From: Prorocentrum cordatum
Lineage: Eukaryota; Sar; Dinophyceae; Prorocentrales; Prorocentraceae
Direction of reading: 5' to 3'
Assembly: GCA_963575745.1 (NCBI GenBank)
Contig: CAUYUJ010003025.1
Coordinates: 531,057 to 595,056 of the forward strand
Length of the DNA: 64,000 bases
The notes beneath the pieces were generated by a model. That model saw only the letters and a program-made list of their open reading frames with translations, did no database searches and was not told the DNA's origin. How positions within the stretch are numbered: position 1 is the first letter of the stretch; every line of letters begins with the position of its first letter. Shown here piece by piece: positions 8,601-47,164 of the stretch. Position numbers and translations under genes: made by a program.

Positions 8601-9424
8601 TGTAGGCCCGCAGAGTCGGGCCCGGAGGCGACGATAGGGGCGAATAGCCCAGGGGGGAGCAACGCATGTATTCGGGGTCGCCCGTGGTAAACGTCTTCGG
8701 CGAGGCTCCCCGGCGAACACTTGCAATCCCCGCCTCTGAGCTATTCGAACCTATCGTCGCCTCTGACGGTCGGAAGAGGGCCATGCAAGACAATGGCGGC
8801 CCTGCAGTCGGGGAGACGCAAGGCCCGAGTTCACTGGTTCTCAGATTTGCTGCTGCTTCTTGACGAACCCGTCCTGGAGTTTGACGCGCAGTTTTCGTGG
8901 GGTGTTTGCAGCGGGAGCTCGCGTCAAGTTTCGGACTGGGTCTCGTCATTCTCTTGTTGGCTTCGCCAGACTAATCCGGGTTCTCCGAACCCGAGTCTTA
9001 CGTCTCTCCTGTTTGGCGTTTGCCGTCCTATTTGGGACCACTTGGAGACTTTCCGTCGCCACGGCTGGATGGATCCATATAGGAAGGCGAGTCAGGATGT
9101 GCCCCGGAAGGGGTCCAGGGGCCGATTCTGAGCAGATGTGGACCAGGCGGGAGAGCCGCCGTTTTTTATCAGAGGAGGGCGAGCTGAGACGACGGTAGTT
9201 GGCCTTCGGGGGGCCCGCTCGTCGCCACGGCTCGGCTCAGCGCGGGATATTGATGTGTTCAGACCCTGGGAGGGGTCCGAGGTCCGTTGAGCCGTTGTTG
9301 GCTCAGCTCGATTGCTCTGAGCAGGAGCGCTCGGTTTTAGCGGAAGTGGCACTTGGTGCCGTGTTGGCTTTGGCCGTGTCCCAGCGTCAGGATTCGAAGG
9401 AAAAGCAAAGGCATGAGCATGATC
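5653..9424. other. No confident gene; several simple-repeat patches
   Basis: Contains a purine-rich GAG tract (about 6350-6425), CT-rich tracts (about 7319-7400 and 7925-8010), a CGCA/CGCG run (about 8110-8170) and degenerate TGTGGTGCA-type units (about 8270-8460). Longer open frames, for example 8721-9131 on plus and 8434-8949 on minus, show no motif or periodicity that I would defend as a gene. Confidence 0.5.
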
Positions 9425-14265: not shown

Positions 14266-14370
14266 TTGTATAGTCTGATTGGTTGTAGACTGCAGGTTAA
14301 GTGGGAGGGGGTGTGGGCTCAGGTAGCCATTTTGGGTCCGTAGCGTTCGGCTCTGGCCGACGCGCGGGTG
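14266..14370 (+). repeat. Terminal repeat A1 of the nested element
   Basis: 105 bases matching A2 (29,518-29,622) with one difference (T versus C). Begins TTGTATAG. Contains the spliced-leader-like stretch. Confidence 0.93.
14316..14335 (+). other. Dinoflagellate spliced-leader relic in repeat A1
   Basis: GGCTCA is followed, after GG, by TAGCCATTTTGG. The dinoflagellate spliced leader contains TAGCCATTTTGGCTCAAG. The order, an SL 3' end (GGCTCA...) running into an SL core, resembles the tandem relict leaders left when trans-spliced RNA is copied back into the genome. The same stretch is in A2 at 29,568-29,587. Confidence 0.6.
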
Positions 14371-14443
14371 TTCCAGGGGGCCGCGGGGCGGCCATAACCA
14401 CGGCCGTGCTAGTCCGCGGACTAGGTAGCGCGCCTGTGGTGCC

Positions 14444-17164
14444 ATGGCTGTGGGCTTCCTGGGGGCGCACCTGATGATCTTGGTTACGGGCGGCGCTCTC
14501 ACGGTCCAAGGGGCACTTGGCTGGCTGCCGTTCGGGCGCGGGGGACAGGAGGTCCCAGCGCCGACGCCGCCAGCCCTGCCCGGGCCGACAGCGCTGCCGG
14601 CAGGCGGTGGGGGGCGAGGCAAGGGGCGAGGACCGCCCGCCAAGCCCGCGCCTGCAGGGGGAAAGGGGCGAGGGCCGCAGGCCAAGCCCCCGGGGGCGCC
14701 GGGCGTCCCACCGCCGCCGCGGTCAGGGTCGACTACAACGACCACGACCGCGGGCATCGGGCGCGTAGGCGAGGGCGAGCCCACGGGCAGCCCAGCTACG
14801 CCGGCGTACGGAGGTAACAACGAGCCCACGGGCGCGCCTGGGCAGCCGTCCGCCCCGGGAAACCGGACGGGCGATGGTGAGCCTGACCTGCCGCGTGGGC
14901 TGGACGGGTATTGGGGGTGGAGTGGTTGGGTCCCGCACCTGCCCCATTGGTGGGCTGGCCGGAACGTACCCCCACCGCCGCCGCCGCCACCTACCCCGCC
15001 CCCGGAGGCGGGGCCGGGTCCCGGTTGGGGCTTCGCAGCCTGGGTCTTCGAGTTCGTGGGCTACGGAGCGTGGGTAAGCTCCCCCGACCACCCGGGCACG
15101 ATCCGCACGAGTGGCGGATGGATTGGATCCGCCGTCGACCGCCTGGGCGTTAAGATGCTTGGGTACTGGTGGGAGACCGCGGTCCTATGCTTTGCCCTAG
15201 GCATCTTCACGTTCGTGTTGGGTGCCCTGGCCTTCATCGTCAACACCGCAGCCCAGCCTATGCTGTGGGCAGCCGGGGGACTCCGCTGGGCGTGGTACCA
15301 GATTACCCGGTGCTGCCAGCGACGCGGAGGCGATGGGCCCGGCGCCCATCTTCCCCCACCCCCTCCGACTCCCTTGCTGGTGCGCTGGCGCGGGCCGGGC
15401 TTGGGCGGCGTGGTGGAGACGGAGTTCTACACAAAGGGGGTCCGCGGCCGAGGGACCAATCGGGCGTACAACCACGTGCTTCTGCGCAAGCACGGGCAGG
15501 TGGCCCGCATCAGCTGCAACTTCGCGGACCGGTACCGACTGGACCGCCACGGGCTCAACATCAAGATCGGGCAGGTCCTGGGGTGCACCAGTCGCAAGTG
15601 GCGGCTGAACCTCGAGGAGACAGGGAATGTGCATCTATGTCGTGCCGTCGAGTGCGCCTCCTGTCCAGTGGCGCATCCCATGCATGTCGACCAGTACGCG
15701 GCCATTGACCACACACAGATCGTGGACTTGGCTGAGCACGGAAAGGCCACGGCCTGCCGGGCAGTCGGCGTGGGGCTCCGGAAGGTATTCGGGGTCGTCA
15801 AGTGGCTGCTTTGCTCACCCTGGTCGGTTCTCGGATGGCTGTGCCGGGGCCGGCCGGAGCCCCGCTACATCACCGACGCCACGGGCTATCGCCGCCTGGA
15901 CATCGATTCGGAGAGCGAGGTGGAGGCGGAGGAGCGCCCCTGCCAAGCCGCACAAGTTGGGGTGCAGCTCGCGGGTGGCGCACGCCCCCTCCAGCCGGAG
16001 GGGTGCGGCGACCGAGGGATGCAGGAGGCCACTGTTCTGCTACAGGAGGACGCGGAGGTGTCGGACGTCCCCCGGCCGGGGCATTGTCTCAATGCACAGG
16101 TGCACCTCTGCGCCCACCATGCGCAGAAGTATCGGTCTACCCTGATCGGCCGCAAGTGCAGCCTCCCCACTTGTCTCCGCATGGCGAAGGGTAGCTGCGG
16201 GGGGGCCCCGATGTGCGGGGAACATCTCCGACGGGACGAGGGTCACACCGTGCGCGTCGAAGCGACGGTCCAACCTGGGATTCTCGGGGGCCTGCGCCGC
16301 CGCATGCGGGCGCGGGCTCCAAGCCCCGCCAGGGCGCGCGATTGGACCGCGCACGCTGCCGATGGGGTTGGCATAGCGCCCGGGCCGGTCTACCCCCCGC
16401 CTCTACCTCCCCCCGCTGCACCGCCACCGCCCGCCGTGGCCCCATCTGTCGATGTGGAGCCCACGGGGGCGCAGGCCCTAGCCTCTGGGCCGCAGCCGCG
16501 TCGCACACGCTCCGCGGAAGCAAGGGCCAGCGGACGCTCACGGTCTGCCGACCGCGGAGCCCCGGGCGATCGGATCGCCCATCACGGGTGGCTTCAGGAG
16601 CCCCTACTCGTGAAGGTCTGCCCGATACTTCCGGGCGACCCTCGGGGAGCCGAGGAGGCGTACGGCGCGCCCCCGGCGAGTCCTTGGTTTATTCTATTGG
16701 GAGAATGCGAGGGGCTCGACGCACGGGGCACTGGCGGGGACGCCCGACTTATCATCGGGACTAGCCTCGAGGGCGTCAGGGTGGAGGTCCCAGCCAGCGA
16801 AGTCGCACGGCACCCCCCTCCGCTGGAGGACGGGCGCTACCCGATAGATTGGATCAATCGGCTGCTGTACGAGGTCCCCCAAGGGGCTCGGGAAGTGGGG
16901 TTGCGTGTCATCGCCCACCACATCCCGCAGGATCTGCTGGCGATGTTACGCCAGGAGCAGTGGGGCGGTGTGGACGTGGAAAGCGCGAGCGGCTGGAGGC
17001 GGCGCTACCTGACGAACACGGAGCGCCAGCAGCTGCAGCACGACCCGGTGCGCACACTCGGCCACCATGCGCACACGGGGCCACGCAGGCGCGCAGCCTG
17101 CGCCCCTGGGCTTCAGCCCCCGTGGCGGCACCGTCGCGCTTGGCGGCGGCCGCCGCCGGCGTGA
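14444..17164 (+). CDS. ORF1 of nested element: membrane-segment Cys/His-rich protein
   Basis: 906 codons from an ATG, uninterrupted. It starts with a hydrophobic N-terminal segment (residues about 3-26), then a Pro/Gly/Ala-rich linker, then a strong hydrophobic stretch near residues 242-275 that could span a membrane. A region follows at about 305-430 with Cys/His clusters, and another Cys/His-rich patch lies near 550-600. The C-terminal third looks globular. I do not recognise a named family. By position it is the first protein of the element and probably part of its Gag or particle assembly. It overlaps the next ORF, which lies in the -1 frame, by up to 316 bases, so frameshifting or reinitiation may link them. 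Confidence 0.75.
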   Translation: MAVGFLGAHLMILVTGGALTVQGALGWLPFGRGGQEVPAPTPPALPGPTALPAGGGGRGKGRGPPAKPAPAGGKGRGPQAKPPGAPGVPPPPRSGSTTTTTTAGIGRVGEGEPTGSPATPAYGGNNEPTGAPGQPSAPGNRTGDGEPDLPRGLDGYWGWSGWVPHLPHWWAGRNVPPPPPPPPTPPPEAGPGPGWGFAAWVFEFVGYGAWVSSPDHPGTIRTSGGWIGSAVDRLGVKMLGYWWETAVLCFALGIFTFVLGALAFIVNTAAQPMLWAAGGLRWAWYQITRCCQRRGGDGPGAHLPPPPPTPLLVRWRGPGLGGVVETEFYTKGVRGRGTNRAYNHVLLRKHGQVARISCNFADRYRLDRHGLNIKIGQVLGCTSRKWRLNLEETGNVHLCRAVECASCPVAHPMHVDQYAAIDHTQIVDLAEHGKATACRAVGVGLRKVFGVVKWLLCSPWSVLGWLCRGRPEPRYITDATGYRRLDIDSESEVEAEERPCQAAQVGVQLAGGARPLQPEGCGDRGMQEATVLLQEDAEVSDVPRPGHCLNAQVHLCAHHAQKYRSTLIGRKCSLPTCLRMAKGSCGGAPMCGEHLRRDEGHTVRVEATVQPGILGGLRRRMRARAPSPARARDWTAHAADGVGIAPGPVYPPPLPPPAAPPPPAVAPSVDVEPTGAQALASGPQPRRTRSAEARASGRSRSADRGAPGDRIAHHGWLQEPLLVKVCPILPGDPRGAEEAYGAPPASPWFILLGECEGLDARGTGGDARLIIGTSLEGVRVEVPASEVARHPPPLEDGRYPIDWINRLLYEVPQGAREVGLRVIAHHIPQDLLAMLRQEQWGGVDVESASGWRRRYLTNTERQQLQHDPVRTLGHHAHTGPRRRAACAPGLQPPWRHRRAWRRPPPA

Positions 17165-17196
17165 GCGAGGATGCTGAGGAGCCCGACCCACTCGAA

Positions 17197-18825
17197 ATGT
17201 TCATGGATTCCTTGCGAGCCGAGGATCTCAAAGGACGGGGGGGCCAAGCGGCGGCCCTCAGTGCATTAGGTATGGCCGCGGACCTGCTCGGGGTTCCGCT
17301 TGATCAGGCGGAACGGCAGCTGCGGCGGAGGGTCGCACAGGTGGCAGCGGCGGGCCCACTGGGGTCCGACCTGGAGCGCGCCCTCGCGGATTTGGAGGAT
17401 GCGCAGCTGGAAGCGCGCGCGCGGGAGCGTGCTGCGGCCGCCGACAGGGTTCCCCTGCAGGGCAGCCTCTCACGCGAGGGGTCGCGGAGTCGCTCGGCGC
17501 GGGGACGGGATCCCAGCCCGAAGCAGGGACCCCGACGCGAGCTCTTCGGGGCCATGCCCCCCATCCAACCCACGGGCCTACGACGGGGCTTGCTGGGTGA
17601 TCGGGACCTGCTGGCGCGCGATGGACGCGGGGGGGCCGCTCGTGGGGCCAATCCGCTCCTCGACGGGGCCTCGGTCCTTGGCCACCTCACTGGCCAGACG
17701 CCCCACGGGGGCGGCCTGGGTGGGGAGCGAGCTGGGGGTCCAGACGACGCCGGGGCGGCGGGCGCCCTAGGCGGGCTTGCAGCCGAGGCCGAAGCCCAGA
17801 TCATCGAGCGCCTGGATCGCCAGAACCGCCTCACCGAACGCCACATCCTCGCCGCCGAGCGGCAGGCGCGGGCCACCGAGGGCGACAAGAAGGCCCGGGG
17901 CACCAGGGCAGGGATCGGTCGGGACGAGGAACTTGATCTTTACATAGCCCGGGGATGCAACACCTTCGTGGTTGAGGCCTGCGAGGGGATCACGGGGAAG
18001 GACTTGTTCGACTCTCTCAAGCGCATGTGTGCGCACTCCAAGAGCACGCTCAAGACGATCGGGTTTCCCTGCCTGGTTACCAACCGTGTGGCGCACGGCT
18101 ACGCGGCGCTCGCCTTCGGGACGGGCCCTCACGACCTGGCGGTGGACGACTGCGTCCCCGCGCGTGACGAGGACTTCGATGGCTATCGGCTCCCTGTGGA
18201 CGACAAGCTGGAGCCCCGCCAGCGGCCCGCCACCCACATGGCGACTTGGTTCAAGAGGGCCCGGTGCGAGATCCAGATGTTCGAGTCCATCGTAGGGGTC
18301 GCACATGGGGCGGAGCGTCGGCGGTCGTTAGGGTTCTTGGAGGCGGCCTTCGAGAGGGACCCCTCGGAGTTCCCAGACCATTGGGTCAAGGATCTGTGGG
18401 AAGAGCTCCGAAGCACCTGGGTCGAGGAGTTACGGGAGCTGAGGCGTCGGCTCTGCCGAGAGCTCGACACCGAGAACCCGAGGAGGGAGGACATCAAGTA
18501 CATCCTACTCATGCCGGAGAACGGCTACGATTTGCCCCGAACGTTCGACCTCGGGGACCCGAACGCCTACTACCAGCAGGTGGTCGTGCCCCGGCGCAAG
18601 GCCGCACTCACGCGCCTCCTCAATGGGCAGCTGAACGCCCACCTCACGAAGCGACCGCCCAAAGCGGGAGGGAGCGAGGAAATGGGCGATCCCCGGCCCA
18701 CGGCGCAGGGGGATGACAGGCCCAAGGCGGGGGCTGGGCCCCAGCCGAAGGCGGGGCCCAAGGCGGGCACCGGGGCCCCAGCGGGGACAGCCCCAAGAGG
18801 GCGTACCCAGCGGGCAAGGAACTAA
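17197..18825 (+). CDS. ORF2 of nested element: Gag-like protein
   Basis: The frame is open from 16,849, but the first ATG is at 17,197, 32 bases after the ORF1 stop; a GTG at 17,161 overlaps that stop. The product has an Arg/Ser-rich middle, then a helical, coiled-coil-like segment (Glu/Arg/Gln-rich, about nt 17,790-17,890). A conserved-looking globular part follows (about nt 17,925-18,640), and a Lys/Pro/Gly-rich tail ends it. Such a layout fits a Gag or nucleocapsid protein. The CCCH finger expected at a Gag C-terminus lies at the start of the next ORF in the -1 frame. That frame is open from 18,717 and reads sensibly up to the finger, so a -1 frameshift inside 18,717-18,822 probably makes a Gag-Pol fusion. 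I saw no canonical slippery heptamer in frame. Confidence 0.75.
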   Translation: MFMDSLRAEDLKGRGGQAAALSALGMAADLLGVPLDQAERQLRRRVAQVAAAGPLGSDLERALADLEDAQLEARARERAAAADRVPLQGSLSREGSRSRSARGRDPSPKQGPRRELFGAMPPIQPTGLRRGLLGDRDLLARDGRGGAARGANPLLDGASVLGHLTGQTPHGGGLGGERAGGPDDAGAAGALGGLAAEAEAQIIERLDRQNRLTERHILAAERQARATEGDKKARGTRAGIGRDEELDLYIARGCNTFVVEACEGITGKDLFDSLKRMCAHSKSTLKTIGFPCLVTNRVAHGYAALAFGTGPHDLAVDDCVPARDEDFDGYRLPVDDKLEPRQRPATHMATWFKRARCEIQMFESIVGVAHGAERRRSLGFLEAAFERDPSEFPDHWVKDLWEELRSTWVEELRELRRRLCRELDTENPRREDIKYILLMPENGYDLPRTFDLGDPNAYYQQVVVPRRKAALTRLLNGQLNAHLTKRPPKAGGSEEMGDPRPTAQGDDRPKAGAGPQPKAGPKAGTGAPAGTAPRGRTQRARN

Positions 18826-18848
18826 CACGCCCGGAGCGTACGCGATCC

Positions 18849-21800
18849 GTGGCGCATGCGCCCCGCAATAAGGACAACGTCCCTATCTGCTGGGGGGCCA
18901 CCACGCACATGGGCTGCTCGCGGAAGGCTTGCGATTGCCCTAACTCCCATGACCCCATCAAGTCAACGCGCGGATTGGACTACTCGGTAGTCATGCAGCT
19001 CACGAGGCGCGGGGGGCTCCTTGGGGCGCCCCGGATCGATCCCAAGCAGGTGGATGGGATGATTGCGCAGCTGCGCTCGCAAGCCAAGGCAGCCGAGGCC
19101 GAGAAGGTTGGCGAGGACACCTCCCCACCTGCTGCCCCTGACTCCCAGAAGGAAAAGGGCCGTGGCCGTGGCAGCGGCTCGCGAGCAGCGGGCGACCCGG
19201 GCCCGGGGCAGGCCCCGGACGACTACACCGCGCTCCAGCTTACCGCGATGGAATCTGACCTCCGGGAAGCGGTTAAGGGCCCCGACTTCGGATGGCTCGA
19301 AGACCACGACCGCCCGCGCGCGGCGGCCACTTGGGACGCCCAGCCCGCGGGTGATGGGCCGGAGCTTCGCCTCAAACTCATGCAGGAGCTCGAATCCGAG
19401 GGCATCTTCGCGCCTCTGAAGGGGGCCAGCGAGTACTTGCAGAGCCACGTGCGCGGGCGCGTCTTGGGGGCGCGCCTGCGCGGGGAGCGGCTCACCCTGG
19501 AGCGAGCCCTCGAGGAAGCCGTGGACCGAGGCCATCGGGGTCTCAGCAGCGAGGCAGCCGACCTGCATGAGGCGCTTAGCTGCGCCGCAGGATACGTCAC
19601 CGAGGGCGGGGCCGAGGTTGGCCCGGTTGCGTGGGACACCGACGGGCTGATAGGCCGCGGGTCCTATACCTTCTGGGACGGGGACACCCGCATCCAGTGG
19701 GACTTCATCGACTACCGGGACCGCCTCGGCCCTACAGAGGAGATGGGCCAGGCGATGGGCCTGGAGGTGGGCGACACCGAGGAGCGGCAGTGCCTGCTAC
19801 TGCACGTAGCTGCGGGGGTGCTCCTGCTACGCGCGGGCGAGGGCACAGGTGAGCCCAGCCCGGACGCGGTGCAGCAGTTGGCCGCGACGTATCGCCATGC
19901 ACTATGGGAGGAGGCCCATGAGGCCCTGCGGGCCCTGGGCGACTCCCCACCGTGGATCACGGCCCTGGAGGCCGATGTCCGCTCCTACGTCCATGATGCG
20001 GTGCACCCGCACCACGACAAGGACTATCGCTGCCTGGCAGCATGCCCCGTCGCCGACCTCGACGCCGTCACGCTCCAGGTGCACCGTGTCAACGGCAGTG
20101 GGCGCCTATGCGTGGACCACCTAATGGGGACGGGTGTCGGCGCGGAGGATCACGTAATTCCGCTCCTGATCTGGCGTGGTCATATGCGCGCCTTGCGCCC
20201 ACGCTCCCACGCGGAGGCGGCGGCCCTAGGCCAGCGCTGGGGGCACGCAGGGCGCCTGTCCCGCGAGATCGTAAGTGTCGGCTGGCGCGAGATGCTCGAT
20301 GAAGGCCCGGACGTTGAACCCACCGTCCCGGGCAAGAGCGCGCCCTGCACCCACTGCAAGGCAGCGGAAGGTCGGGCGGGCCGCGCAGTGGGACGCGCGC
20401 CAGCCTCGTTCGGGGAACATCCAGCCGACGTCCAGGCACGCCTCCTGGAGGCGAACGCGATGCCAATTCGACACGACCCCGCGTTCGCGTACGGTTTGAT
20501 CGCCCAGGAGGTGTACGCCGGTTCGGGAAATTGGTCGGCCGCGCTTCGCGCCGAGGGCATCCGGGTGCTGGAGCCGATCGAATATTACGACGACCCCCTC
20601 CGAGAGTCCGGCCCACGGCCGGATCATGACACCCTCGACCCAGCGGTTCGCGCGCGCCTACAGGAGGCCGCACGGACCCCCATGGGCCCCGACGTGGCCA
20701 ACGTTTGGTGCTGGGGTACCCCGTGTGGCTCGTACACCGACCTTGGGCTCATGACCCAGCCGGGCGGGACCCCGCAGGGCGCCCGCACGTGGGAGCACCC
20801 CGAGGGGGATGGCTCCAAAGAGTTCGAGCGCGTGGGTAACAGCCACACACAGTTCACGTGCGACACCTGCCGCATCCTACACGACGCCGGCAAGGAGTTT
20901 CTCATCGAGTCCTCCTGCCCCTCGGGCCGCTACCCCAAGATTTGGGACCAGGCCCCGATGCACGAGCTGCGTCGAGCGACGGGGGCCATGATCGTCCCGA
21001 TCCACATGTGCGCCTGGGGTAAGGCCCCGTCCGACGCGCCAGAGAGCCGCTATCGCAAGGGCAGCTGGTGGCTCGTCAGCCCCCGGCTGTACCTGCACGC
21101 TCTGCTGTTGGCGCGACGTTGCCCACGTGACCACCACCACGTCGAGCTGAAGGATCACGTGCCGGGCTCGGGCATTAAGCGCACCAAGGAGGCGCAGGTT
21201 TGGGCCCCCCGCCTTTGCGCCGCGTGGGCAAAGGTGTTGAAAGGGGCCTATCACCGCTGGTCGGTGAGCCAACTGCGTCGGCAGTTGGCGCCTATATGGG
21301 AGGATGGCCCGGGGGCGTCCCCCAAAATCGCCCGGGCGGAGGCGCCCGGGCGCCTGCAGGGCGTCGACTTCACTGGAATCGAGCGCCTGCAGGCCTCAGG
21401 GGACGGCTCAAAATGCGGTAGGCTTAGCCCAGCCATGCACCGAGCATTGGCGGGGCTTCCTAAGCCCCCATTGGGCAAGGCACAGGGGGAGGTGAGTGCG
21501 GGCAAGACTCGACCCCCTTGCGAGGATCCGGCCAGAGATATCGCGGAGGACCTCGACGGGTGCAGCCCGGCGGAGCTGGCCACGGTCTACCTGACCTTCT
21601 GCACGGAGCACCCTGAGTACGACCCCGAAGCCATGCGGACCCTGGTGGGGCTGGGGGATCAGCTCCTCCAGCGGACGGGGTCCCTGAAGGAAGCGGCCGC
21701 GCTGCTTAGGCGCGCGCGCCACGAGCGCCTGGGCAACCCCCTTCGGGGTGTCCTGGGGGACAAGGTGCGACGGTGTTTAAGCCGAGAGCACTTCGAGTAC

Positions 21801-24800
21801 GTCCGGGAGCTAGCGGAAGGGGGAGCCTCCGCGCGGCGGGGCGCGCCGCGGAGGCGCGAGCGAGCCCAGCCGTACCCCAGCGTGCGAGCCCACATCGACG
21901 AGGCCTACCAGAAGGTATGGGCGGATGTGACCTGGGGGATCGTCCTGGTGGCTTCCCAGGCGGCAGAGGGTTTTCTGACGGAGCTGGTGGAAGCCCCCCT
22001 GGGGAGGGTACCGAAGCAGCTACCGGACAGGACCTTATCGTCCGAAGGGCGTATGATCCACGCGATGCTCTCGGCCAACGCCGCCACACACAAGCGCGAC
22101 CACCCGCCTGCCGTCCAGCCACGCCATCGGCAAGTGGCGAGGACGGCGGTATGGCATCGCGCGCGCCACCCCGGAGCGCGCCTCCTCTGCGCCAAGCGGG
22201 ACGTCTCGCGGGCCTTCAAGTGGCTGGACATCGCCCCGGCGGACGTCGGGGACTTTGGCACCTCATTACCGGGGGCCCACGCTGGCATCGAGGGGGACGT
22301 CAGAGTCGTTTACCTAGCCATGGTGTTTGGGTGGACGGGAGCCCCAGGCAATTACATGATGCTCGCCCTGGCGGCGAGGGAGCTCCACGAGAGCTATCGG
22401 CCTGGGGAGCCGCACTGGCACGACACCACCCACTTCCACTCGGAGTGGCTCATGGATGACCCTGTGGTGGTGGAGCCCGACATTGGGGTCCGACCGTGGA
22501 TGGCCTGCGACGCATTGGATGCCTCCATACGTGAGGTGTTTGGGTCCGAAGCAGTGAACGTCAGCAAGAGGGACGCCGAGGGGGAGCCTTCCACCACGCA
22601 GATTATCTGGGGGCTCAGTATGGACTTCGAGCGCGAGCGAGTTGGACTCCCGGAGCCCAAGGCCATGAAGATGCGCTTCCTACTGGCGGAGCCGGAGCTG
22701 AGCTTCGGCTGCCGCATGGTCCGGCTGCGAACCGCGAGGGAGCTAAGTGGGCTCGGCCAGTTCTGCGCCTGCGCAGCTCCAGCCCTGAGCCTGGAGCTCC
22801 CAGCGGTCCACCGGATGCTGTCGGGTGACCCAGGTCAGGCCTACGTCCATCCGCCGGGCGACCCCGAGATGGTAGAGGCTGCGTGGGACGATTGGCACCA
22901 GACCCTGGATTGGCTGCGCGTCTGCTTTGAGATGCCGGTCGAGGGTAACTTCGAGACCTCCTTCGAGGGCCTGCTAGGCCTTCGCGAGGCCCTCGCACTC
23001 CCGGGGGCGCTCGGCAAGCTGCGCTGGCTGGGAGGCGATGCCACCCTGGATCGGATCGGTGCGCTGGACTGGTCCTCGCGCGAGTACATCGTGGCGGAGG
23101 CGGCTCCCTATCTGGAGACGCTCCGCTCCGCCCCTGGGGTCACCTGGCAGGGGGAGGGGGAGATCATCGCGGTGGTCGAACTCCTCTGCCTGATAGCCTT
23201 GGCGGCCGAGAAGGGCCCGGACTGGTTCCAGCTGCTATTGCCGTACGTCACTGACAACAGTAATGTCAGCCGCTGGCTGCGACGCCGCCGGGCACGGAAC
23301 GCGGTGGCGCGCCACCTGCTTCGAGTCCTGGCCATGCTGGAGCTACGGTACAAGTTCCGGGTCCTGGACGGGCTTTACTTGCGGACTTACCACAATGAGC
23401 TGGCCGACTTCATTACTCGTGCCACGGTGGAGGAGGTACGCCAGCGGATGGCGGAGGCCGGATGGACCGAGCTGTCGCCGGCAGCACCGTGGGGCGAGTT
23501 GGTGGAGGAGGCCGCCCAGCGCGAGCTGCGGATGCCAGGAGACGACGGGCCCTGGCGCGCGGCTGCGCTCCAAGTCAAAGGAGCCCGGGAGGCCCTACTA
23601 CGCTACGCCCCCCTGCAGGTCGAGGGGGCGCGGCTGCTGGAGGTGGGAACCGCGTGGCCCCCCTTTGGGGAGGCATGGGAGAGCCTCGGTGGGTCGGCGC
23701 TGCTAGCGCCGTGGGATGTCGGTGACCGATGGGACCCGGACGACGGGGACCACCCCAAGGACCCCACTGGGGCCCCACGGACCCGCTGGCTGTGCGTGTC
23801 ACTATCGGAGGACCCCGGTGGACGCGAAGCGACGGGCCTGGAGCGGCTACTGATCACCATTCGGCCACTGGCCGTGTTGCTCGACGCTCCCGTCAACTAC
23901 GCTGCAGTGCGACTAGGGGCGCGCTTACGGCGCCTCGGCTATGTGGCACTCTCCCCAGAGACGCGCCTACTGTGCACACACTTCGGCGACGTCACGGCAC
24001 GCGCGCGGGCGGTCCAGGTTTGGGGTTGCGGAGAACGGGTTCGGGCACCGAGCCCCATACCCCCCCTGGGGCAGCCCTGCGTGGAGCCACGCGGCCTCTG
24101 CCAGCTCTGGAAAGAGGCAGGGCGGCCACCGCTGGATGAGCTCCGCCTGGACCTCAACAACGGCACCTTGCTCGTGGACCCTCGGATCTCGACGACGGGG
24201 GATCGCATGATGCCCTGGCCGCGCGGCACATGGCAGCCCGCGGGAGGCGGGCGGGCCCAGCGCGTGGTGATTCATGATCCGCGCGGGCCCTGCCATACGG
24301 CACGGGCGAAGCCCGACCCGTTGAAGGGCTATGCGAACACCCTGATCCTGGAAGGGTCCGAGGGCGGCTGGACCGTGCGAGCCCTGCACCCGAAAGAAAT
24401 CTGGTGCGCCCAGGGGGGCACGGCGGAGCTGTGGGATGCCTTGGGCCTTGGAGGTATGCCGATCGCCGAGCGCATGCGGCAGGCCGCTCGTGCACTCCCG
24501 CGTCGCACGGCCCGCTGGGTGCTCCAGTGGGCGGAGCGCCTGCTGAGGCAGGCCGTAGAGGCAGCGAGCGCAGGCGAGGCACCCGGGGCGCGCGCTGGCG
24601 TCGGACCCGATCACGACCGACTCGCTAACGACGAGATGGTTAAGCTGTGGCTAAAGGCCTGGCTTCAGGCCCCCGATCGCCCAAGCGGGCCATTCGAGGC
24701 TGCGCTGGAGGCGGGGAAGACGACGGACGACGCCGCTCGGTTGGCGGACCAGCTCGACCCCCCTGCTACCGCGCGGTCCACCGCAGCAGGGGAGGACGGG

Positions 24801-27800
24801 GCAGGCGGGGAGCGGGTCGGGGCGGTGACCTTCGCTGTTCCGGAAGGCGCGGGCATGCCCAGGCCAAGCGCCATGGACGGCGTGGGCGGCGAGGCTCGCC
24901 CCCCGCGCAAGGCCCGCCGGCGTACCCGCAGCGCCCCTGCTCCCGCGCTGGTGAAGCCCGCCGCCTGGCGGTACGCCGGCGGGGGCGCCCCGAAAGGGAT
25001 TCAAGGTGAACTCACCGACCCCCGCGAGCTGGATGCGACCGCCACCGAGGCGATGTTGGCCAAGCTTGCCGAAGGGACGCGGGCCAATTACAGCGCCGGG
25101 TGGCGTAACTGGGTACTCTGGCGGAGGCTCCGAGGCCGGAGCCCATACCTGCAGGGGGAGACTCGGGACGCCCGCCTTACGGATGAGGATGACCTCATCC
25201 GGTATGTCGTGTACCTGTACAAGGTGATGAAGAGGCGGGCCACGACCATCCGCCAGCGCCTGTTCGCCATTCGATATGCCCACACCCTGGCCGGGTTTGG
25301 GGATGTGACCTCCGATCGGCGCCGGCTCTGGACCACGATCGAGGGACTCCGCCGCTGGGACGGAAAGGCGAAACGGAAGCTGCCGGCCACGCCCCGGATG
25401 TTGCGCTGGCTCCGCGAGTACTTGTTCGCCCACGGGACGGCCACGCGCCGGGAGGCGACCATCCTATGGGCGGCGCTTATGACGGGGTACTTCTTCATGC
25501 TCCGCGCGTCGGAGTATTTGGTCCAAGAGGACCGCTCCTGGAGCATGGGACGGGTGGTGCGTGGGCAGGACGTGCAGGGGATGCGCGGGGGTACACCCAG
25601 CGCAAGGCTCAGCGACTGCGATGAGGTAGTACTGACGATCACGTCGTCCAAGACGGACCAGTTCAACGCAGGTTGCGTACGCAACCATTACCGCTCGGGG
25701 GTGGAGTTGTGTGTCGTGGACGCACTCGCCGACCTCCAGAGGGAGCTGCCGGACCGGTTTGGACGAGGAACCGAGGCGGGGCTCCCCCTGTTCCGCCGGC
25801 CCGATGGCCACCCGATTATGCGGGAGGAGGTGCAGGGGCTCCTCCAACTCGCGGCTGCCGCCTGCGGCGTGGACGCAGGCCAGATGGGATCCCACTCCCT
25901 GCGCATCGGGGGCGCGACGGCGTTGTACCACGCCTGTCGCGACCTGGAAGCGGTCAAGAGGTTCGGGAGGTGGTCCACGGACGCCTTCCACGGATATCTC
26001 TGGGAGGACCATCGGCGTCAGGCTCCATTCGCCCGAGGCATGGCGGAGGGCCACGCCTTATTGGCCCCGGACGCCCGCGGTGACGACGGCGCCGCGGCCG
26101 GCGCCCGCCCCGACCAGTTGGCCGGGAGCGACCCGCCCCAGTTTGGGAGCGACCTGAGGCCCTCGGAACGCCCGGCCTGGGCGCCCGGGCGCCCCCCCTG
26201 GGCGCGCCCTTCGGCGCGAGCAGGGTCAACTACGGAGGGGGAAGGAGAGGAGGAGCTGGTGAGATACGAGCCAGGGCGAGGAGTTAACGGGCGTGTGGGG
26301 AAGCAGCAGGCGGGTCCCACGGGTATTCAGGTCAGGGCGGGGGCTTCGCGTTGTGGGGGTATCCCGGTGGACCTCTCGCCCTCGACCCCCCTTTCGCTAC
26401 CGCTCCCGATCGCCCCAGGCACGCCCACCTCCTCTTGGTCCTCTCATCCGCAGCCATCTCCCACTCCAGAGCGAGGCACGCGAGCAGCGCGCGCACCCCA
26501 GCCTCGCGCGCCAGCCGCGCCTCCGCCCCGCGCTCCGGCAGCGTGCATCATGGGATTCCTGGTGGGCCTGGTGGCCCCGGACCAGAGCAAGGCGCGTGGC
26601 CATGACTACAGCATCATGGCGGTGAACCCCCTCGGCGTCGTCGTCTCGGGGGCCGCGCTGTCGGACGAGCTCCGGAGTGCCGCCCACAACATCCTGTACA
26701 CGGTGGTGAACGAGCTGGACAGCGAGGACCTCGTCGAGGTGGTCAACCACGACCACGAAGCAGCCCCGTGCATCGCGGCGGCTTGCTTGGCCGCGGGGGC
26801 GAGCGAGGACCACGGCCAGCTGGTGATCGTCGACGGCAAGCGGGGCGCGTGGGGGGTGGGCGCGGGGCCGAATATCAAGGTCCAGCGCCAGGCGGCCAAG
26901 CTGGCGCTCGCCCTGGCCCAGTTCCAGGGGCAGCCCATGCCGGAGCTCCGCGAGCTCTGCAAGCACAACAGGGGGCTGCTCGACATGATGCGCACGGTGG
27001 ACGCGGAGGCGGTCGTGGAGCTCACCGACGTGGACGACGCCTCGAGCAGGGGCGAGGGGAGGTCGACCCCAGCCCCGGTCCTCGAGGCGGGAGAGGACGC
27101 GGTCACCGCGGCGCTGGCGCGCGCGGCCATCCAGGCTGCAGCGCGGCGCCAGAGCAAAGGCGCTCCAGCGGAGCGCCCGCGGCCCGCGCGGTCCCCGGGC
27201 CAAGAGCGCCTCGCCGAAGAGGTCCGCAAGCGCGAGAGGCGCCCTGCGCCCTTGCGCTCGCCCTCGCGCGCGAGGCGCCGCGATCGCGAGCGCGATGCGC
27301 CTCGCGATCGCGGGCGCAGGGGACAGGAGGAGGAGGCCGTCTTGAAACCCAAGACGGGCGGCGCCCCCCCGAAGGCCGACATCGTGAAGCGTGAGGCCGT
27401 CCTGAAGCCCAAGAGCGGGGGGGCGCCGCCGCGGTCCTTCGAGGTGAAGACCGAGGTGGAGGAGGCGGCGGCGCCAGGCGCGGGGGACGGTCCGCCCCAG
27501 CGCCAGCCGCGCTCGAGGAGCCGCCGTAGGCGCAAGGAGGAGCAGCGCCAGGGCGCCCAGCAGCAGCCCAGTGACCAGCACGACGAGGGCGAGTCCATCA
27601 TCCGCATCGAGCGGGTACCGCACCACGTCGATGCCGAGGTGGTCAGGCAGGTGGTCGTGCCCTTTGGGGTCGTCAAACACATCGCCTTCCTGTACGACCA
27701 CCGCCACAAGCGGGAGCCGTGCGTGCTGGTGGAGTTCCAGCGCCGCGCTGACGCAAAGCGCGCGCGGGAGTGCATGAGGTCGAACTATCGGTTCTACAAG

Positions 27801-28751
27801 ACGGACCCGTGCACGGTGGTCACGGAGTGGGCGAGCCGACCTCGCGGCCCTGACCCAGGCAGCGACGGGGAGGATGGCCCGACCATCCAGCCGCCTGCCT
27901 GCCCGACGTGCGCACTCAAGATGCGCTGGAGCTCCTTTGACCCGGGAGACGGTTGGGGTTGCGAGATGTGCCCCGCGGGCGGAGCTAACAGCGGAGCCCT
28001 GCGGTGGCACTGTAAGGGGTGCGACGTGAGCTACTGCGAGGCTTGCCGCGTCGCCTTCGGCAAACCCAAGACGGTGGTGGAGAAGGCCCGGCGGAGCGGC
28101 CACACCGTGCGGGAGGCGCCGGGCCCCAGTGCCGGCCATGGAGAGCGCCCCAGCACGGGTGCCACGGGTGCGGGGGCTGAGGGGGACCGCCCGCCGGGCG
28201 ACCTCAGCTGGCCCAAGCGTGAGAGGTCGCCCAGCCGCAACCGGCCCAAGCGCGAGAGGTCGCCCAGCCGCAGTCTGGCGCGGGACCCAGCGCGGGCGCG
28301 GCGCGGCGACACCCCTCCCGGCCGCACGCGGCGTAAGACCGGGAAGCACGCTGGGCAGCTTCGCGCTCCTCGCGGCGGCTGGTACGAGCAGGAGAAAAAG
28401 CGGCGGCGTGCTGCCGCCGCGGAGGCTGCCGCGGGCGGGGGTGGGATCCCAGCCTGGCGTGGCAAGGGCGCGGGCGACAAGGGCGGCAAGGGCGGCAAGG
28501 TCAAGGGCAAGCACTCCGGCAAGGCCGCCAAGGGCTCCAAGAGCGGCGGCAAGGGCGACAAGAGCGGCAAGGGCGGCCACTCCAAGGGCGACCAGGGCAG
28601 CCGCGGCCGGAGTGAGCGTGACTGGCCCAGCGCGGACGGTCGCGCGTCGAGGGGCGGCGATGGCGGCAGCCCCCGGGACCCCAGTGAGCGCGGCGGAGAC
28701 CGCAGCGGAGACGAGAGCCGCGACCGCCAGGGGAACACGCCCTCCATCTAG
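18849..28751 (+). CDS. ORF3 of nested element: Pol polyprotein with RT, RNase H, two methyltransferase-like domains and tyrosine recombinase
   Basis: 3300 codons without a stop, counted from a GTG at 18,849; no ATG precedes the first domain, so it is probably reached by frameshift from ORF2. Domains, by residue: CCCH finger C14-C23-C30-H34. Methyltransferase-like, about 520-840, with a Gly-rich loop near 558, Pro625-Cys626 and C721. Reverse transcriptase, about 1080-1330, with D1118 in motif A, FGWTGAPG at 1160 and LMDD at 1201-1204. RNase H of DIRS type, with E1444, D1469-N and D1520. C5-methyltransferase-like, about 1590-1900. Tyrosine recombinase, about 2060-2400, with R2219, K2268, H2349, R2352, W2375 and Y2383. 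An RRM/zinc-like tail follows from 2568. The recombinase would integrate a circular cDNA. Confidence 0.9.
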   Translation: MAHAPRNKDNVPICWGATTHMGCSRKACDCPNSHDPIKSTRGLDYSVVMQLTRRGGLLGAPRIDPKQVDGMIAQLRSQAKAAEAEKVGEDTSPPAAPDSQKEKGRGRGSGSRAAGDPGPGQAPDDYTALQLTAMESDLREAVKGPDFGWLEDHDRPRAAATWDAQPAGDGPELRLKLMQELESEGIFAPLKGASEYLQSHVRGRVLGARLRGERLTLERALEEAVDRGHRGLSSEAADLHEALSCAAGYVTEGGAEVGPVAWDTDGLIGRGSYTFWDGDTRIQWDFIDYRDRLGPTEEMGQAMGLEVGDTEERQCLLLHVAAGVLLLRAGEGTGEPSPDAVQQLAATYRHALWEEAHEALRALGDSPPWITALEADVRSYVHDAVHPHHDKDYRCLAACPVADLDAVTLQVHRVNGSGRLCVDHLMGTGVGAEDHVIPLLIWRGHMRALRPRSHAEAAALGQRWGHAGRLSREIVSVGWREMLDEGPDVEPTVPGKSAPCTHCKAAEGRAGRAVGRAPASFGEHPADVQARLLEANAMPIRHDPAFAYGLIAQEVYAGSGNWSAALRAEGIRVLEPIEYYDDPLRESGPRPDHDTLDPAVRARLQEAARTPMGPDVANVWCWGTPCGSYTDLGLMTQPGGTPQGARTWEHPEGDGSKEFERVGNSHTQFTCDTCRILHDAGKEFLIESSCPSGRYPKIWDQAPMHELRRATGAMIVPIHMCAWGKAPSDAPESRYRKGSWWLVSPRLYLHALLLARRCPRDHHHVELKDHVPGSGIKRTKEAQVWAPRLCAAWAKVLKGAYHRWSVSQLRRQLAPIWEDGPGASPKIARAEAPGRLQGVDFTGIERLQASGDGSKCGRLSPAMHRALAGLPKPPLGKAQGEVSAGKTRPPCEDPARDIAEDLDGCSPAELATVYLTFCTEHPEYDPEAMRTLVGLGDQLLQRTGSLKEAAALLRRARHERLGNPLRGVLGDKVRRCLSREHFEYVRELAEGGASARRGAPRRRERAQPYPSVRAHIDEAYQKVWADVTWGIVLVASQAAEGFLTELVEAPLGRVPKQLPDRTLSSEGRMIHAMLSANAATHKRDHPPAVQPRHRQVARTAVWHRARHPGARLLCAKRDVSRAFKWLDIAPADVGDFGTSLPGAHAGIEGDVRVVYLAMVFGWTGAPGNYMMLALAARELHESYRPGEPHWHDTTHFHSEWLMDDPVVVEPDIGVRPWMACDALDASIREVFGSEAVNVSKRDAEGEPSTTQIIWGLSMDFERERVGLPEPKAMKMRFLLAEPELSFGCRMVRLRTARELSGLGQFCACAAPALSLELPAVHRMLSGDPGQAYVHPPGDPEMVEAAWDDWHQTLDWLRVCFEMPVEGNFETSFEGLLGLREALALPGALGKLRWLGGDATLDRIGALDWSSREYIVAEAAPYLETLRSAPGVTWQGEGEIIAVVELLCLIALAAEKGPDWFQLLLPYVTDNSNVSRWLRRRRARNAVARHLLRVLAMLELRYKFRVLDGLYLRTYHNELADFITRATVEEVRQRMAEAGWTELSPAAPWGELVEEAAQRELRMPGDDGPWRAAALQVKGAREALLRYAPLQVEGARLLEVGTAWPPFGEAWESLGGSALLAPWDVGDRWDPDDGDHPKDPTGAPRTRWLCVSLSEDPGGREATGLERLLITIRPLAVLLDAPVNYAAVRLGARLRRLGYVALSPETRLLCTHFGDVTARARAVQVWGCGERVRAPSPIPPLGQPCVEPRGLCQLWKEAGRPPLDELRLDLNNGTLLVDPRISTTGDRMMPWPRGTWQPAGGGRAQRVVIHDPRGPCHTARAKPDPLKGYANTLILEGSEGGWTVRALHPKEIWCAQGGTAELWDALGLGGMPIAERMRQAARALPRRTARWVLQWAERLLRQAVEAASAGEAPGARAGVGPDHDRLANDEMVKLWLKAWLQAPDRPSGPFEAALEAGKTTDDAARLADQLDPPATARSTAAGEDGAGGERVGAVTFAVPEGAGMPRPSAMDGVGGEARPPRKARRRTRSAPAPALVKPAAWRYAGGGAPKGIQGELTDPRELDATATEAMLAKLAEGTRANYSAGWRNWVLWRRLRGRSPYLQGETRDARLTDEDDLIRYVVYLYKVMKRRATTIRQRLFAIRYAHTLAGFGDVTSDRRRLWTTIEGLRRWDGKAKRKLPATPRMLRWLREYLFAHGTATRREATILWAALMTGYFFMLRASEYLVQEDRSWSMGRVVRGQDVQGMRGGTPSARLSDCDEVVLTITSSKTDQFNAGCVRNHYRSGVELCVVDALADLQRELPDRFGRGTEAGLPLFRRPDGHPIMREEVQGLLQLAAAACGVDAGQMGSHSLRIGGATALYHACRDLEAVKRFGRWSTDAFHGYLWEDHRRQAPFARGMAEGHALLAPDARGDDGAAAGARPDQLAGSDPPQFGSDLRPSERPAWAPGRPPWARPSARAGSTTEGEGEEELVRYEPGRGVNGRVGKQQAGPTGIQVRAGASRCGGIPVDLSPSTPLSLPLPIAPGTPTSSWSSHPQPSPTPERGTRAARAPQPRAPAAPPPRAPAACIMGFLVGLVAPDQSKARGHDYSIMAVNPLGVVVSGAALSDELRSAAHNILYTVVNELDSEDLVEVVNHDHEAAPCIAAACLAAGASEDHGQLVIVDGKRGAWGVGAGPNIKVQRQAAKLALALAQFQGQPMPELRELCKHNRGLLDMMRTVDAEAVVELTDVDDASSRGEGRSTPAPVLEAGEDAVTAALARAAIQAAARRQSKGAPAERPRPARSPGQERLAEEVRKRERRPAPLRSPSRARRRDRERDAPRDRGRRGQEEEAVLKPKTGGAPPKADIVKREAVLKPKSGGAPPRSFEVKTEVEEAAAPGAGDGPPQRQPRSRSRRRRKEEQRQGAQQQPSDQHDEGESIIRIERVPHHVDAEVVRQVVVPFGVVKHIAFLYDHRHKREPCVLVEFQRRADAKRARECMRSNYRFYKTDPCTVVTEWASRPRGPDPGSDGEDGPTIQPPACPTCALKMRWSSFDPGDGWGCEMCPAGGANSGALRWHCKGCDVSYCEACRVAFGKPKTVVEKARRSGHTVREAPGPSAGHGERPSTGATGAGAEGDRPPGDLSWPKRERSPSRNRPKRERSPSRSLARDPARARRGDTPPGRTRRKTGKHAGQLRAPRGGWYEQEKKRRRAAAAEAAAGGGGIPAWRGKGAGDKGGKGGKVKGKHSGKAAKGSKSGGKGDKSGKGGHSKGDQGSRGRSERDWPSADGRASRGGDGGSPRDPSERGGDRSGDESRDRQGNTPSI
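20409..21370 (+). other. Methyltransferase-like domain I within ORF3
   Basis: Residues about 521-840 of the Pol frame. A GSGNW loop after a short strand resembles the SAM-binding motif I of C5-cytosine methyltransferases. WGTPCG at 622-627 resembles the Pro-Cys catalytic motif. ESSCPSGRYPKIW from 687 sits where the EN(V/P) motif would be, and a conserved CAWG element starts at 721. Order and spacing are plausible for a Rossmann-type methyltransferase. The match is by motif only, and enzymatic activity cannot be judged. Confidence 0.45.
22086..22840 (+). other. Reverse transcriptase domain within ORF3
   Basis: Motif A is KRDVSRAF (Asp at residue 1118), motif B is FGWTGAPGN and motif C is WLMDD. 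A Lys-containing segment with a Gly (IIWGLSMDF) follows as motifs D and E. The order and spacing are those of DIRS/Ty3-class reverse transcriptases, with Leu-Met-Asp-Asp in place of the commoner Tyr-x-Asp-Asp. Confidence 0.9.
23152..23430 (+). other. RNase H domain within ORF3
   Basis: Acidic residues E1444, D1469 (in TDNSNVSRWL) and D1520 (in NELADFITR) follow the pattern of DIRS-element RNase H, where a TDN and a terminal N-x-x-A-D are conserved. It lies directly after RT, as in that class. Confidence 0.8.
23620..24550 (+). other. C5-cytosine-methyltransferase-like domain II within ORF3
   Basis: Residues about 1590-1900. LLEVG with a following Gly-rich stretch and APWDVGD resembles motifs I-II. 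PLAVLLDAPVNY matches the place of the ENV motif. HFGDVTARARAVQVWG resembles the QxRxR motif VIII region. VRALHPKEIWCAQGG, followed by a Gly and helix, resembles motifs IX-X (RxLTxxE...QGF). The catalytic Pro-Cys is not evident near 1646 (LCVSLSEDP), so this copy may be inactive or structural. Known DIRS elements carry a methyltransferase, but of adenine type and in another arrangement. Confidence 0.5.
25011..26050 (+). other. Tyrosine recombinase (YR) domain within ORF3
   Basis: The N-terminal SAM-like core-binding part is at about 25,070-25,330 and the catalytic part at about 25,440-26,010. The full catalytic set is visible: Arg in MLRASEY, Lys in SSKTDQ, HSLR, Trp in GRWST and Tyr in HGYLWE. 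This is the phage-integrase superfamily fold used by DIRS, PAT and Ngaro elements and by Cryptons. It should join the circular cDNA to the target. Confidence 0.92.
26550..28751 (+). CDS. Possible separate ORF4: RRM-like, zinc-binding, Lys/Gly-rich protein
   Basis: In frame with ORF3, but preceded by about 500 bases of low-complexity Pro/Ala/Gly coding after the recombinase. It has its own ATG at 26,550, so it may be translated separately. The product has an N-terminal globular part (to about nt 27,030) and a basic Arg/Ser linker with KxGGAPP-type repeats. An RRM-like fold follows at about 27,594-27,790 (IIRIERVP ... VLVEFQRRADAKRA). Next are paired CxxC/CxxxC zinc clusters (27,899-28,060), repeated KRERSPSR motifs, and a tail of GKGGK repeats. 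RNA binding is the natural inference. An accessory domain of this kind is not part of textbook YR retroelements as I know them, and it could be captured host sequence. Confidence 0.6.
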   Translation: MGFLVGLVAPDQSKARGHDYSIMAVNPLGVVVSGAALSDELRSAAHNILYTVVNELDSEDLVEVVNHDHEAAPCIAAACLAAGASEDHGQLVIVDGKRGAWGVGAGPNIKVQRQAAKLALALAQFQGQPMPELRELCKHNRGLLDMMRTVDAEAVVELTDVDDASSRGEGRSTPAPVLEAGEDAVTAALARAAIQAAARRQSKGAPAERPRPARSPGQERLAEEVRKRERRPAPLRSPSRARRRDRERDAPRDRGRRGQEEEAVLKPKTGGAPPKADIVKREAVLKPKSGGAPPRSFEVKTEVEEAAAPGAGDGPPQRQPRSRSRRRRKEEQRQGAQQQPSDQHDEGESIIRIERVPHHVDAEVVRQVVVPFGVVKHIAFLYDHRHKREPCVLVEFQRRADAKRARECMRSNYRFYKTDPCTVVTEWASRPRGPDPGSDGEDGPTIQPPACPTCALKMRWSSFDPGDGWGCEMCPAGGANSGALRWHCKGCDVSYCEACRVAFGKPKTVVEKARRSGHTVREAPGPSAGHGERPSTGATGAGAEGDRPPGDLSWPKRERSPSRNRPKRERSPSRSLARDPARARRGDTPPGRTRRKTGKHAGQLRAPRGGWYEQEKKRRRAAAAEAAAGGGGIPAWRGKGAGDKGGKGGKVKGKHSGKAAKGSKSGGKGDKSGKGGHSKGDQGSRGRSERDWPSADGRASRGGDGGSPRDPSERGGDRSGDESRDRQGNTPSI

Positions 28752-28856
28752 GCGTGGAGCCCCCCCCGTACCCCGACGCCAGCGCCCGCGGCATCGCGGG
28801 CGCGGGCTGAAGGCGGCGGCCTGTGAGTGAGCCGGCCCTCCTCTCAGCCTACCGTG

Positions 28857-28995
28857 CGCAGGTGGCGCCTGCGATCCTGAGCCTACGGTACGCAGGTGGC
28901 GCCTGCGATCTTCTTTCTTTTAGCCTCGGTACGCAGGTGGCGCCTGCGATCTTCTTTCTTTTAGCCTACGGTACGCAGGTGGCGCCTGCGATCCT
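28857..28995 (+). repeat. Four tandem hairpin units after the last ORF
   Basis: Four units each contain CGCAGGTGGCGCCTGCG, a self-complementary hairpin core, spaced 32-42 bases apart. Three also share TTTCTTTTAGCC or CTCTCTTTGG linkers. They lie in the 3' untranslated part of the nested element and could serve in RNA stability, termination or cDNA packaging. Function is unknown. Confidence 0.7.
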
Positions 28996-29306
28996 CTCTC
29001 TTTGGAGGAGTTTAACTTTGCGCGCACGTCGCGTGCTTCCTGGACCCGGCCGTGCCGCGCGTCTTGCGCGCCGTGCGGTCGGGGCCACACTTGCGCTCTG
29101 CGCCCGGCGCATCGTGCGCCGTCCCCTTTCGGTTCTTTTGCGCGCATCGCGCACGCGCCGCGCCCGCGCTCTGGGTGCGCGGGGCGCGGAAGGCCTCAAG
29201 GTTGCAGGCAAGTGGCCGCGCGCGCGAGGCTCTTGCAGCCTCTGGTTCCGCCCTCGCACTCGGGCGGGGCGTCCCCGCGCGCGCGGCTGCGTCTTTCTTT
29301 TCTCAT

Positions 29307-29517
29307 GGCCGAGCGGCCGCAGGCGTGCCAGAGCGCGAGCGCGCGGGCCGTCAGGGCCCACGCGCTCGCGTTGAGCGTGGGGCCATCAGGGCCCACGCCC
29401 AGGCGGAGATGCGCGTCGCCACGCTGCCATGAAAATACCATCGCCCTGTCCTGGTCCCCCTCTCGTCCCCTCCTCTCCTCCTCTCCCTCCGTTGAGTGCA
29501 CGCGTATCTCACTTAAC
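29307..29517 (+). repeat. Split direct repeat B1
   Basis: 211 bases that look identical to B2 (29,659-29,869). Directly joined to A2 at 29,517/29,518, which preserves the circle junction. Confidence 0.92.
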
Positions 29518-29622
29518 TTGTATAGTCTGATTGGTTGTAGACTGCAGGTTAAGTGGGAGGGGGCGTGGGCTCAGGTAGCCATTTTGGGTCCGTAGCGTTC
29601 GGCTCTGGCCGACGCGCGGGTG
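29518..29622 (+). repeat. Split direct repeat A2
   Basis: 105 bases matching A1 with one difference. Contains the second spliced-leader-like stretch at 29,568-29,587. Confidence 0.93.
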
Positions 29623-29658
29623 CCCACCCACCCCGCTTTGCTCCCAGACGCCTGCGTC

Positions 29659-29869
29659 GGCCGAGCGGCCGCAGGCGTGCCAGAGCGCGAGCGCGCGGGC
29701 CGTCAGGGCCCACGCGCTCGCGTTGAGCGTGGGGCCATCAGGGCCCACGCCCAGGCGGAGATGCGCGTCGCCACGCTGCCATGAAAATACCATCGCCCTG
29801 TCCTGGTCCCCCTCTCGTCCCCTCCTCTCCTCCTCTCCCTCCGTTGAGTGCACGCGTATCTCACTTAAC
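29659..29869 (+). repeat. Split direct repeat B2
   Basis: 211-base copy of B1 that ends the element. A 36-base spacer separates it from A2. Confidence 0.92.
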
Positions 29870-47066: not shown

Positions 47067-47164
47067 AGATTGGGCGAGGTCCTTGGAACGTCCTTGATTA
47101 GTTTCGGTCGCAGAGGAATTTTGCGACCGATCCTAAGGCCCCTACACACGAGTGGCAGGTCAAG

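Follow-up and report, generated by a model that had tools for sequence, protein, structure and literature searches.

A probable giant tyrosine-recombinase retrotransposon of Prorocentrum cordatum with spliced-leader-like sequence in its terminal repeat

In the dinoflagellate Prorocentrum cordatum, a 64,000-nt stretch of contig CAUYUJ010003025.1 (assembly GCA_963575745.1, positions 531,057 to 595,056 of the forward strand), here called the window and numbered from its first letter, contains an element of 15.6 kb at 14266..29869. The explanation that best fits the data as a whole, and that we consider highly probable, is a giant dinoflagellate retrotransposon of the tyrosine-recombinase (YR) type, recently inserted and cycling in the manner proposed below. 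All of its features lie on the forward strand. The original prediction of a YR retrotransposon with the order A1 - open reading frames (ORFs) - B1 - A2 - B2 is supported by the presence of the catalytic residues of reverse transcriptase (RT), RNase H and YR, and the unusually large size that it claimed is confirmed. Its YR anatomy stands, its description of the element as intact is not supported, and the activity that it considered possible has behind it only a 98% protein match to the 3' ORF on a 2,869-nt contig; the methyltransferases, membrane-protein region, RNA-binding ORF and spliced-leader relicts described here were not mentioned in it. The interest of the element lies mainly in the leader relicts within its repeat and in its unusual domain set.

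The positions originally given for the A and B repeats are exact. Repeat A1 (14266..14370), at the left end, and repeat A2 (29518..29622) are 105 nt long and differ by one mismatch (104/105 identical), and repeats B1 (29307..29517) and B2 (29659..29869), the latter at the right end, are identical over all 211 nt (211/211). A unique spacer of 36 nt (29623..29658) lies between A2 and B2. The order A1 - coding region - B1 - A2 - spacer - B2 is that of the split direct repeats of PAT/Ngaro-type elements, and the repeat matches are far above chance expectation. Since the copies of split-repeat elements are supposed to be equalised in each cycle, the single difference across 316 positions of the A and B pairs suggests that the insertion is recent; on this sequence evidence the element is a young 15.6-kb insertion. 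The GC content in 1-kb bins is 0.66-0.74 inside the element versus 0.54 and 0.55 in the adjoining bins, and GC-rich bins (0.64-0.71) also occur outside the element at 9-12 kb. CpG depletion, as a sign of self-methylation, was not seen (observed/expected 0.96 in the element versus 1.07 and 0.92 in the flanks). At the B1/A2 joint (29510..29555), the inverted 8-mers CACTTAAC and GTTAAGTG stand 30 nt apart and form a possible YR site; when the first 60 nt of A were shuffled by single bases 5000 times, such an 8-mer arose in 42 of the shuffles. The predicted RNA fold of B1-A2-B2 is more stable than those of 100 shuffles (z -5.0), and no tRNA or Rfam match was found. Tandem repeats of 41 nt were also detected between ORF4 and B1 (28846..29003), in about four units that each contain a GGCGCC-centred near-palindrome.

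When the two flanks are joined, one sense frame remains open for 453 nt over the junction (-289 to +164), compared with 135 and 84 nt for the other frames, and its translation is continuous (..LLMRAMQNQA|RFVEAKTQQEFLQREAQ..). By this frame argument no target bases were removed, and a target-site duplication is absent at this one site, as expected of YR integration. The host ORF that holds the insertion is itself decayed further from the junction. Neither blastn nor tblastn with seven proteins detected a second copy or a relative of the element elsewhere in the window. To the right, an ORF at 38045-39202 resembles by eye the RNase H end of Ty1/copia Pol (ADLASDIRTHRSTS...) and has no Pfam match; this ORF may belong to a decayed copia-like element into whose upstream part the giant element inserted.

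The domain order of the element is membrane protein, Gag, zinc knuckle, first methyltransferase (MT1), RT, RNase H, second methyltransferase (MT2), YR and RNA-binding ORF. ORF1 (14444..17164, 906 aa) encodes the N-terminal membrane-protein region, with a hydrophobic N terminus, a strong transmembrane segment at aa 247-265 and a Cys-rich part; it is 31% identical to aa 48-669 of the related protein P0005, and its coding signal extends to ~17.06 kb. The Gag-like ORF2 (16849..18825, 658 aa; first ATG at 17197) is 41% identical to aa 843-1244 of P0005, and frame switches in codon usage place its real coding part at ~17.06-18.79 kb. ORF3 (18849..28751, open from 18717; first ATG at 18909) has 3,300 aa and covers the zinc knuckle, MT1, RT, RNase H, MT2, YR, a linker and the ORF4 region. 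These three lengths agree with the ORF content given earlier.

The CCCH-like zinc knuckle (18879..18950) was recognized by eye, and its Cys/His pattern also occurs in the relatives P0004, P0005, P0008 and P0009. MT1 (20436..21338), which shares ORF3 with RT, has a C5-cytosine methyltransferase fold by structure comparison and a conserved catalytic Cys626; the DNMT3A rows tie with Dnmt2, HhaI, ZMET2 and DNMT1 (Z within 1). Both RT (21846..22958) and RNase H (23001..23528) were identified by catalytic motifs only. In RT these are KRDVSRAFKW, FGWTGAPG and LMDD, with D1118, D1203 and D1204 invariant in all seven aligned rows, and the D..E..D..D residues of RNase H are conserved in the five rows that cover the domain. 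The SAM-methyltransferase-like MT2 (23616..24548; region 686-832 of the predicted model) has no Pro-Cys motif and is, by its model, a methyltransferase fold without the catalytic Cys, probably structural. No DDE integrase was found among the Pfam matches, although RT and RNase H of this element likewise escape Pfam. The entry PF26692, precomputed for P0004, P0005, P0008 and P0009, was not recovered when P0005 was rescanned, which is unexplained.

The tyrosine recombinase (25044..26138) is continuous with RT in ORF3 and so part of one Pol frame. The piece matched Phage_integrase with an E value of 1.5e-4, and its score of 22.0 bits is below the Pfam cut-off of 27.1. Its residues R, K, R, W and Y are invariant in four of four rows (pattern R..K..(H)xxR..W..Y), and a search of the YR alignment against PDB profiles returned five chains at E 0.06-0.36, four of which are recombinases or integrases. 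Among 90 matches to YR, five are named Prorocentrum cordatum (P0027, P0028, P0031, P0044 and P0060), with 39-49% identity over 90-97% of the query; together with the leader relicts described below, these point to a dinoflagellate host. A tree built from the YR of the element and of 63 out of 97 proteins, with no named DIRS, PAT or Ngaro reference among them, joins the element to P0040 and P0017 (99/91 and 100/97), and both the P. cordatum clade and the P0004-P0006 clade lie elsewhere in it. Four further YR relatives (P0047, P0054, P0057 and P0073) carry a precomputed PF00226 (DnaJ), in a ten-row clade next to the YR of the element; this association of DnaJ with a recombinase is unexplained.

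With ORF3 as query, 2,583 candidates were scored and seven relatives found (P0004-P0010). Proteins P0004-P0009 show 39-43% identity over 25-48% of ORF3 and are colinear with it, and P0010 is a remoter relative (29% over 10%). P0008 and P0009 are almost identical in sequence and lie on separate contigs, either as recent copies or as one copy assembled twice. For P0004 and P0005, the models continue beyond YR and do not include the final 800 residues of ORF3; the remaining four of this group stop before YR is complete and are uninformative on those residues. Viral contigs contained no relatives when searched with the YR piece, with P0011 (a relative of ORF4 described below) or with a 25-nt pattern from A, and the RT alignment had no match in viral or genome contigs. 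The YR alignment matched 24 loci in viral contigs (IMG/VR) at 24-30% identity; because of their location on IMG/VR contigs, these were taken for phage integrases and left aside uninspected.

ORF1, ORF2 and ORF3 occupy three frames, each -1 relative to the preceding ORF. Tblastn and codon usage agree that coding moves from frame 2 to frame 1 at ~17.06-17.16 kb and from frame 1 to frame 0 at ~18.72-18.79 kb, and both switches precede the first ATG of the next frame (17197 and 18909). Because homology to ORF3 begins before its first ATG, ORF3 must be fused to ORF2. The relative P0005 is a single protein of 4,033 aa, whose colinearity with the three ORFs extends to where YR ends; its single frame possibly reflects a spliced gene model.

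The dinoflagellate spliced leader has the sequence DCCGUAGCCAUUUUGGCUCAAG (PMC6050394, PMC6616646, in the parts consulted). Relict 1 in A1 (14323..14335), GTAGCCATTTTGG, is an exact 13-mer of leader nt 4-16 (22-nt numbering), and it occurs again in A2 at 29575-29587; these (14323 and 29575) are the only sites in the window with one mismatch or none, where 0.02 would be expected. The local score of relict 1 is 27, which none of 2000 dinucleotide shuffles of A reached. A decayed relict 2 in A1 (14337..14353) gave the best score, 17, once relict 1 was masked, with 10 of 2000 shuffles as high; it was aligned in A1 only, and its A2 position (29589-29605) was assigned by register. Directly before relict 1 stands GGCTCAG, a candidate for a 3' splice site or for the tail of a further leader. 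In the cited part of PMC6050394, younger and more 5' leader relicts are described as having fewer mutations, and the same pattern is seen in A, where the upstream relict is the less decayed one. Since A holds a leader piece and a decayed second one in the coding sense, the element probably cycles through a trans-spliced mRNA. Outside the element, the next best leader-like site (9271-9291, score 23) is a possible retrogene relict.

At the 3' end of the coding region, ORF4 (26550..28751) has its own ATG and is fused in frame to ORF3. It contains an RRM (E 8e-5), a zinc-binding-like, B-box-like Cys-rich motif (E 0.01, below the cut-off) and an RS/KG-rich tail; its N terminus had no PDB match. Residues 2568-3300 of ORF3 match the stand-alone, 729-aa P0011 with 98% identity over 733 aa and the same starting Met. 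P0011, encoded on a 2,869-nt NCBI contig, was the only match among 7,991 scored candidates in a search in which low-complexity words may have crowded out others. The GC content at fourfold sites of ORF4 is 0.87 (431 sites) versus 0.77-0.81 in all 34 equally long pol windows; in windows of 244 codons, only its first part (0.88-0.93) is distinct, and its last part (0.78-0.84) overlaps pol (0.74-0.87). These features suggest that ORF4 is likely a captured cellular mRNA, and P0011 would be either a transcript of the captured cellular gene or part of another element copy. A leader-like stretch upstream of ORF4, with a score of 17, was not convincing as a relict.

A life cycle may be proposed from these features. 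Transcription would start from A1, and the host would add its spliced leader to the mRNA at the AG that immediately precedes relict 1 in A, which would serve as the 3' splice site. The mRNA would be translated into a Gag-Pol polyprotein, and the RNA reverse transcribed. The left part of A1, which would be missing from the trans-spliced mRNA, is carried by the B1-A2 region and could be restored from it while the RNA is reverse transcribed; the product would be a circle whose B-A joint YR would recombine with the chromosome. The cDNA may be methylated by MT1. Leader sequence that was copied along with the RNA would have persisted in A as a tandem of relicts, with less decay in the upstream one.

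Several results weigh against a YR retrotransposon that cycles in this way. A Pfam match to RT or RNase H was absent in all seven family members scanned, the whole protein family, compared with PDB profiles, gave one match, at a meaningless E of 1.4, and the predicted structure of RT-RNase H-MT2 has a mean pLDDT of 43, leaving its RT and RNase H parts unusable for fold comparison. A fitting slippery heptamer occurs only in the first ORF overlap (CCCCCCT, 16813), well before the switch, and none was found in the second. Even with three mismatches allowed, the leader was not found in the window, and the spliced-leader likeness consists of 13 exact nt and a weak second match. A composite origin, in which a long terminal repeat element or two nested elements carry repeats that mimic split repeats, would agree with the other retroelement remains in the flanks (the copia-like ORF seen by eye at 38045-39202). 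It is nevertheless very improbable, as the GC block is bounded by A1 and B2, the flank frame is continuous, and the homology to P0005 is colinear from 15.0 to 26.3 kb with gaps of up to 0.5 kb. The claim that no disabling mutation is present is not borne out, given the two unexplained frame changes at ~17.06-17.16 and ~18.72-18.79 kb, and this copy may be non-autonomous because of them. We give an even chance to a dead copy of a single-polyprotein element that was moved in trans, its frame changes being inactivating indels or assembly errors. The single 4,033-aa frame of P0005, the coding signal and homology that cross both ORF borders ahead of their ATGs, and the lack of a suitable heptamer at the second border all favour it; on the other hand, the long ORFs read open apart from these changes, the repeats hardly differ, both changes are -1 steps such as programmed frameshifting produces, and the single frame of P0005 might come from a spliced gene model.

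Alternatively, programmed -1 frameshifts or other recoding might link the three ORFs in a functional copy. Both steps are -1 and homology to ORF3 begins ahead of its first ATG, but the second overlap has no fitting heptamer and that of the first lies upstream of the codon-usage switch, making this explanation possible at clearly less than even chances. It is rather unlikely that, in an element of the same kind, the leader-like stretch of A represents a promoter or a fortuitous resemblance, with trans-splicing playing no part in the life cycle. In favour of this are the shortness of the exact match (13 nt), leader-like scores of 16-23 at 17 further places in the window on both strands, the discussion of the leader's TTT(G) as a possible promoter motif in the part of PMC6050394 consulted, and the proposal, in that of PMC6616646, that tandem-leader genes are another source of tandem relicts, which would need one trans-splicing event. 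However, both A copies hold the top score of the window (27) in the coding sense, and relict 1 lies 121 nt upstream of the ATG of ORF1, right after an AG and before a second leader-like stretch.

Two other features of the window were noted. In the right flank, a tandem duplication of ~4.95 kb (41900-51500) is marked by seven repeat pairs of 138-300 nt, 94-97% alike and spaced 4,946-4,969 nt apart; its two units contain ORFs of ~700 and ~870 aa, similar by eye and without a Pfam match. At the start of the window (99-540), a degenerate 15-nt array, GGTTAGGGTCTGTAG, has a telomere-like look.

The element joins three oddities of dinoflagellates, namely huge YR retroelements, methyltransferases in retroelements and genomic spliced-leader relicts. 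No open-licence paper was found that joins the terms dinoflagellate, DIRS, spliced leader and retrotransposon. The element type behind retroposition of host mRNAs is described as unknown in the accessible part of PMC6050394, whose authors favour Ty1/copia; an element with leader relicts of its own and a probable captured mRNA is a further, testable candidate. Tentatively, and a little short of an even chance, a distinct dinoflagellate YR lineage may be represented here, with a terminal repeat built on host leaders, a giant multi-domain Pol that combines an active methyltransferase with a pseudo-methyltransferase, and an RNA-binding gene acquired by capture. Its genomic RNA would be the trans-spliced mRNA, whose leader would be copied into the repeat in each cycle, perhaps for strand transfer or as a promoter.

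Assigned by features rather than by a tree with references, the element is, from its sequence, a YR retrotransposon (order DIRS in the wide sense) with ends of the PAT/Ngaro type; the published systems are compared below as far as the consulted parts of the sources describe them. It differs from PAT and Ngaro in its membrane-protein region, MT1 and MT2, YR in the Pol frame and 3' RNA-binding ORF. PAT, Kangaroo and Toc, likened to it by features, share split direct repeats, RT/RNase H, YR and a methyltransferase domain (PMC4157794), but their methyltransferase is of a different type and the extra domains are found here; the methyltransferase of DIRS-class elements is Dam-like (PMC5890265). Ngaro has the same A1-[ORFs]-B1A2B2 order with internal repeats downstream of YR, and the Ngaro elements of Cafeteria are likewise GC-rich insertions in other elements, although of ~6 kb rather than 15.6 kb (PMC4157794, PMC8547959). 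Ngaro is, however, defined as lacking a methyltransferase domain (PMC4157794), whereas the present element has the MT1 fold. VIPER/TATE of kinetoplastids shares the A1...B1-A2-B2 order, a Gag zinc knuckle and a trans-splicing host, and SIRE, which corresponds to its A2-B2 region, has an exclusive middle of ~30 nt, like the 36-nt spacer here; it has three ORFs, and neither a methyltransferase nor a leader relict is mentioned for VIPER or TATE in the part consulted (PMC6681497).

The closest published system is SymbioDIRS-Dnmt3 of Symbiodinium, which has in common with the present element a dinoflagellate host, A-coding-B-A-B repeats, a cytosine methyltransferase in the Pol ORF with RT, and a divergent RT that is poorly matched by Pfam (PMC5890265). 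Its YR is a separate ORF, whereas that of the present element is in the Pol frame, and its methyltransferase was placed in Dnmt3 (PMC5890265); MT1 ties among several C5-methyltransferases, DNMT3A among them. The part of that source consulted gives no element lengths or leader relicts. Compared with SymbioDIRS-Dnmt3, the element of P. cordatum has a membrane-protein region at its N terminus, an RNA-binding ORF at its 3' end and two methyltransferase domains, of which one lacks the catalytic Cys.

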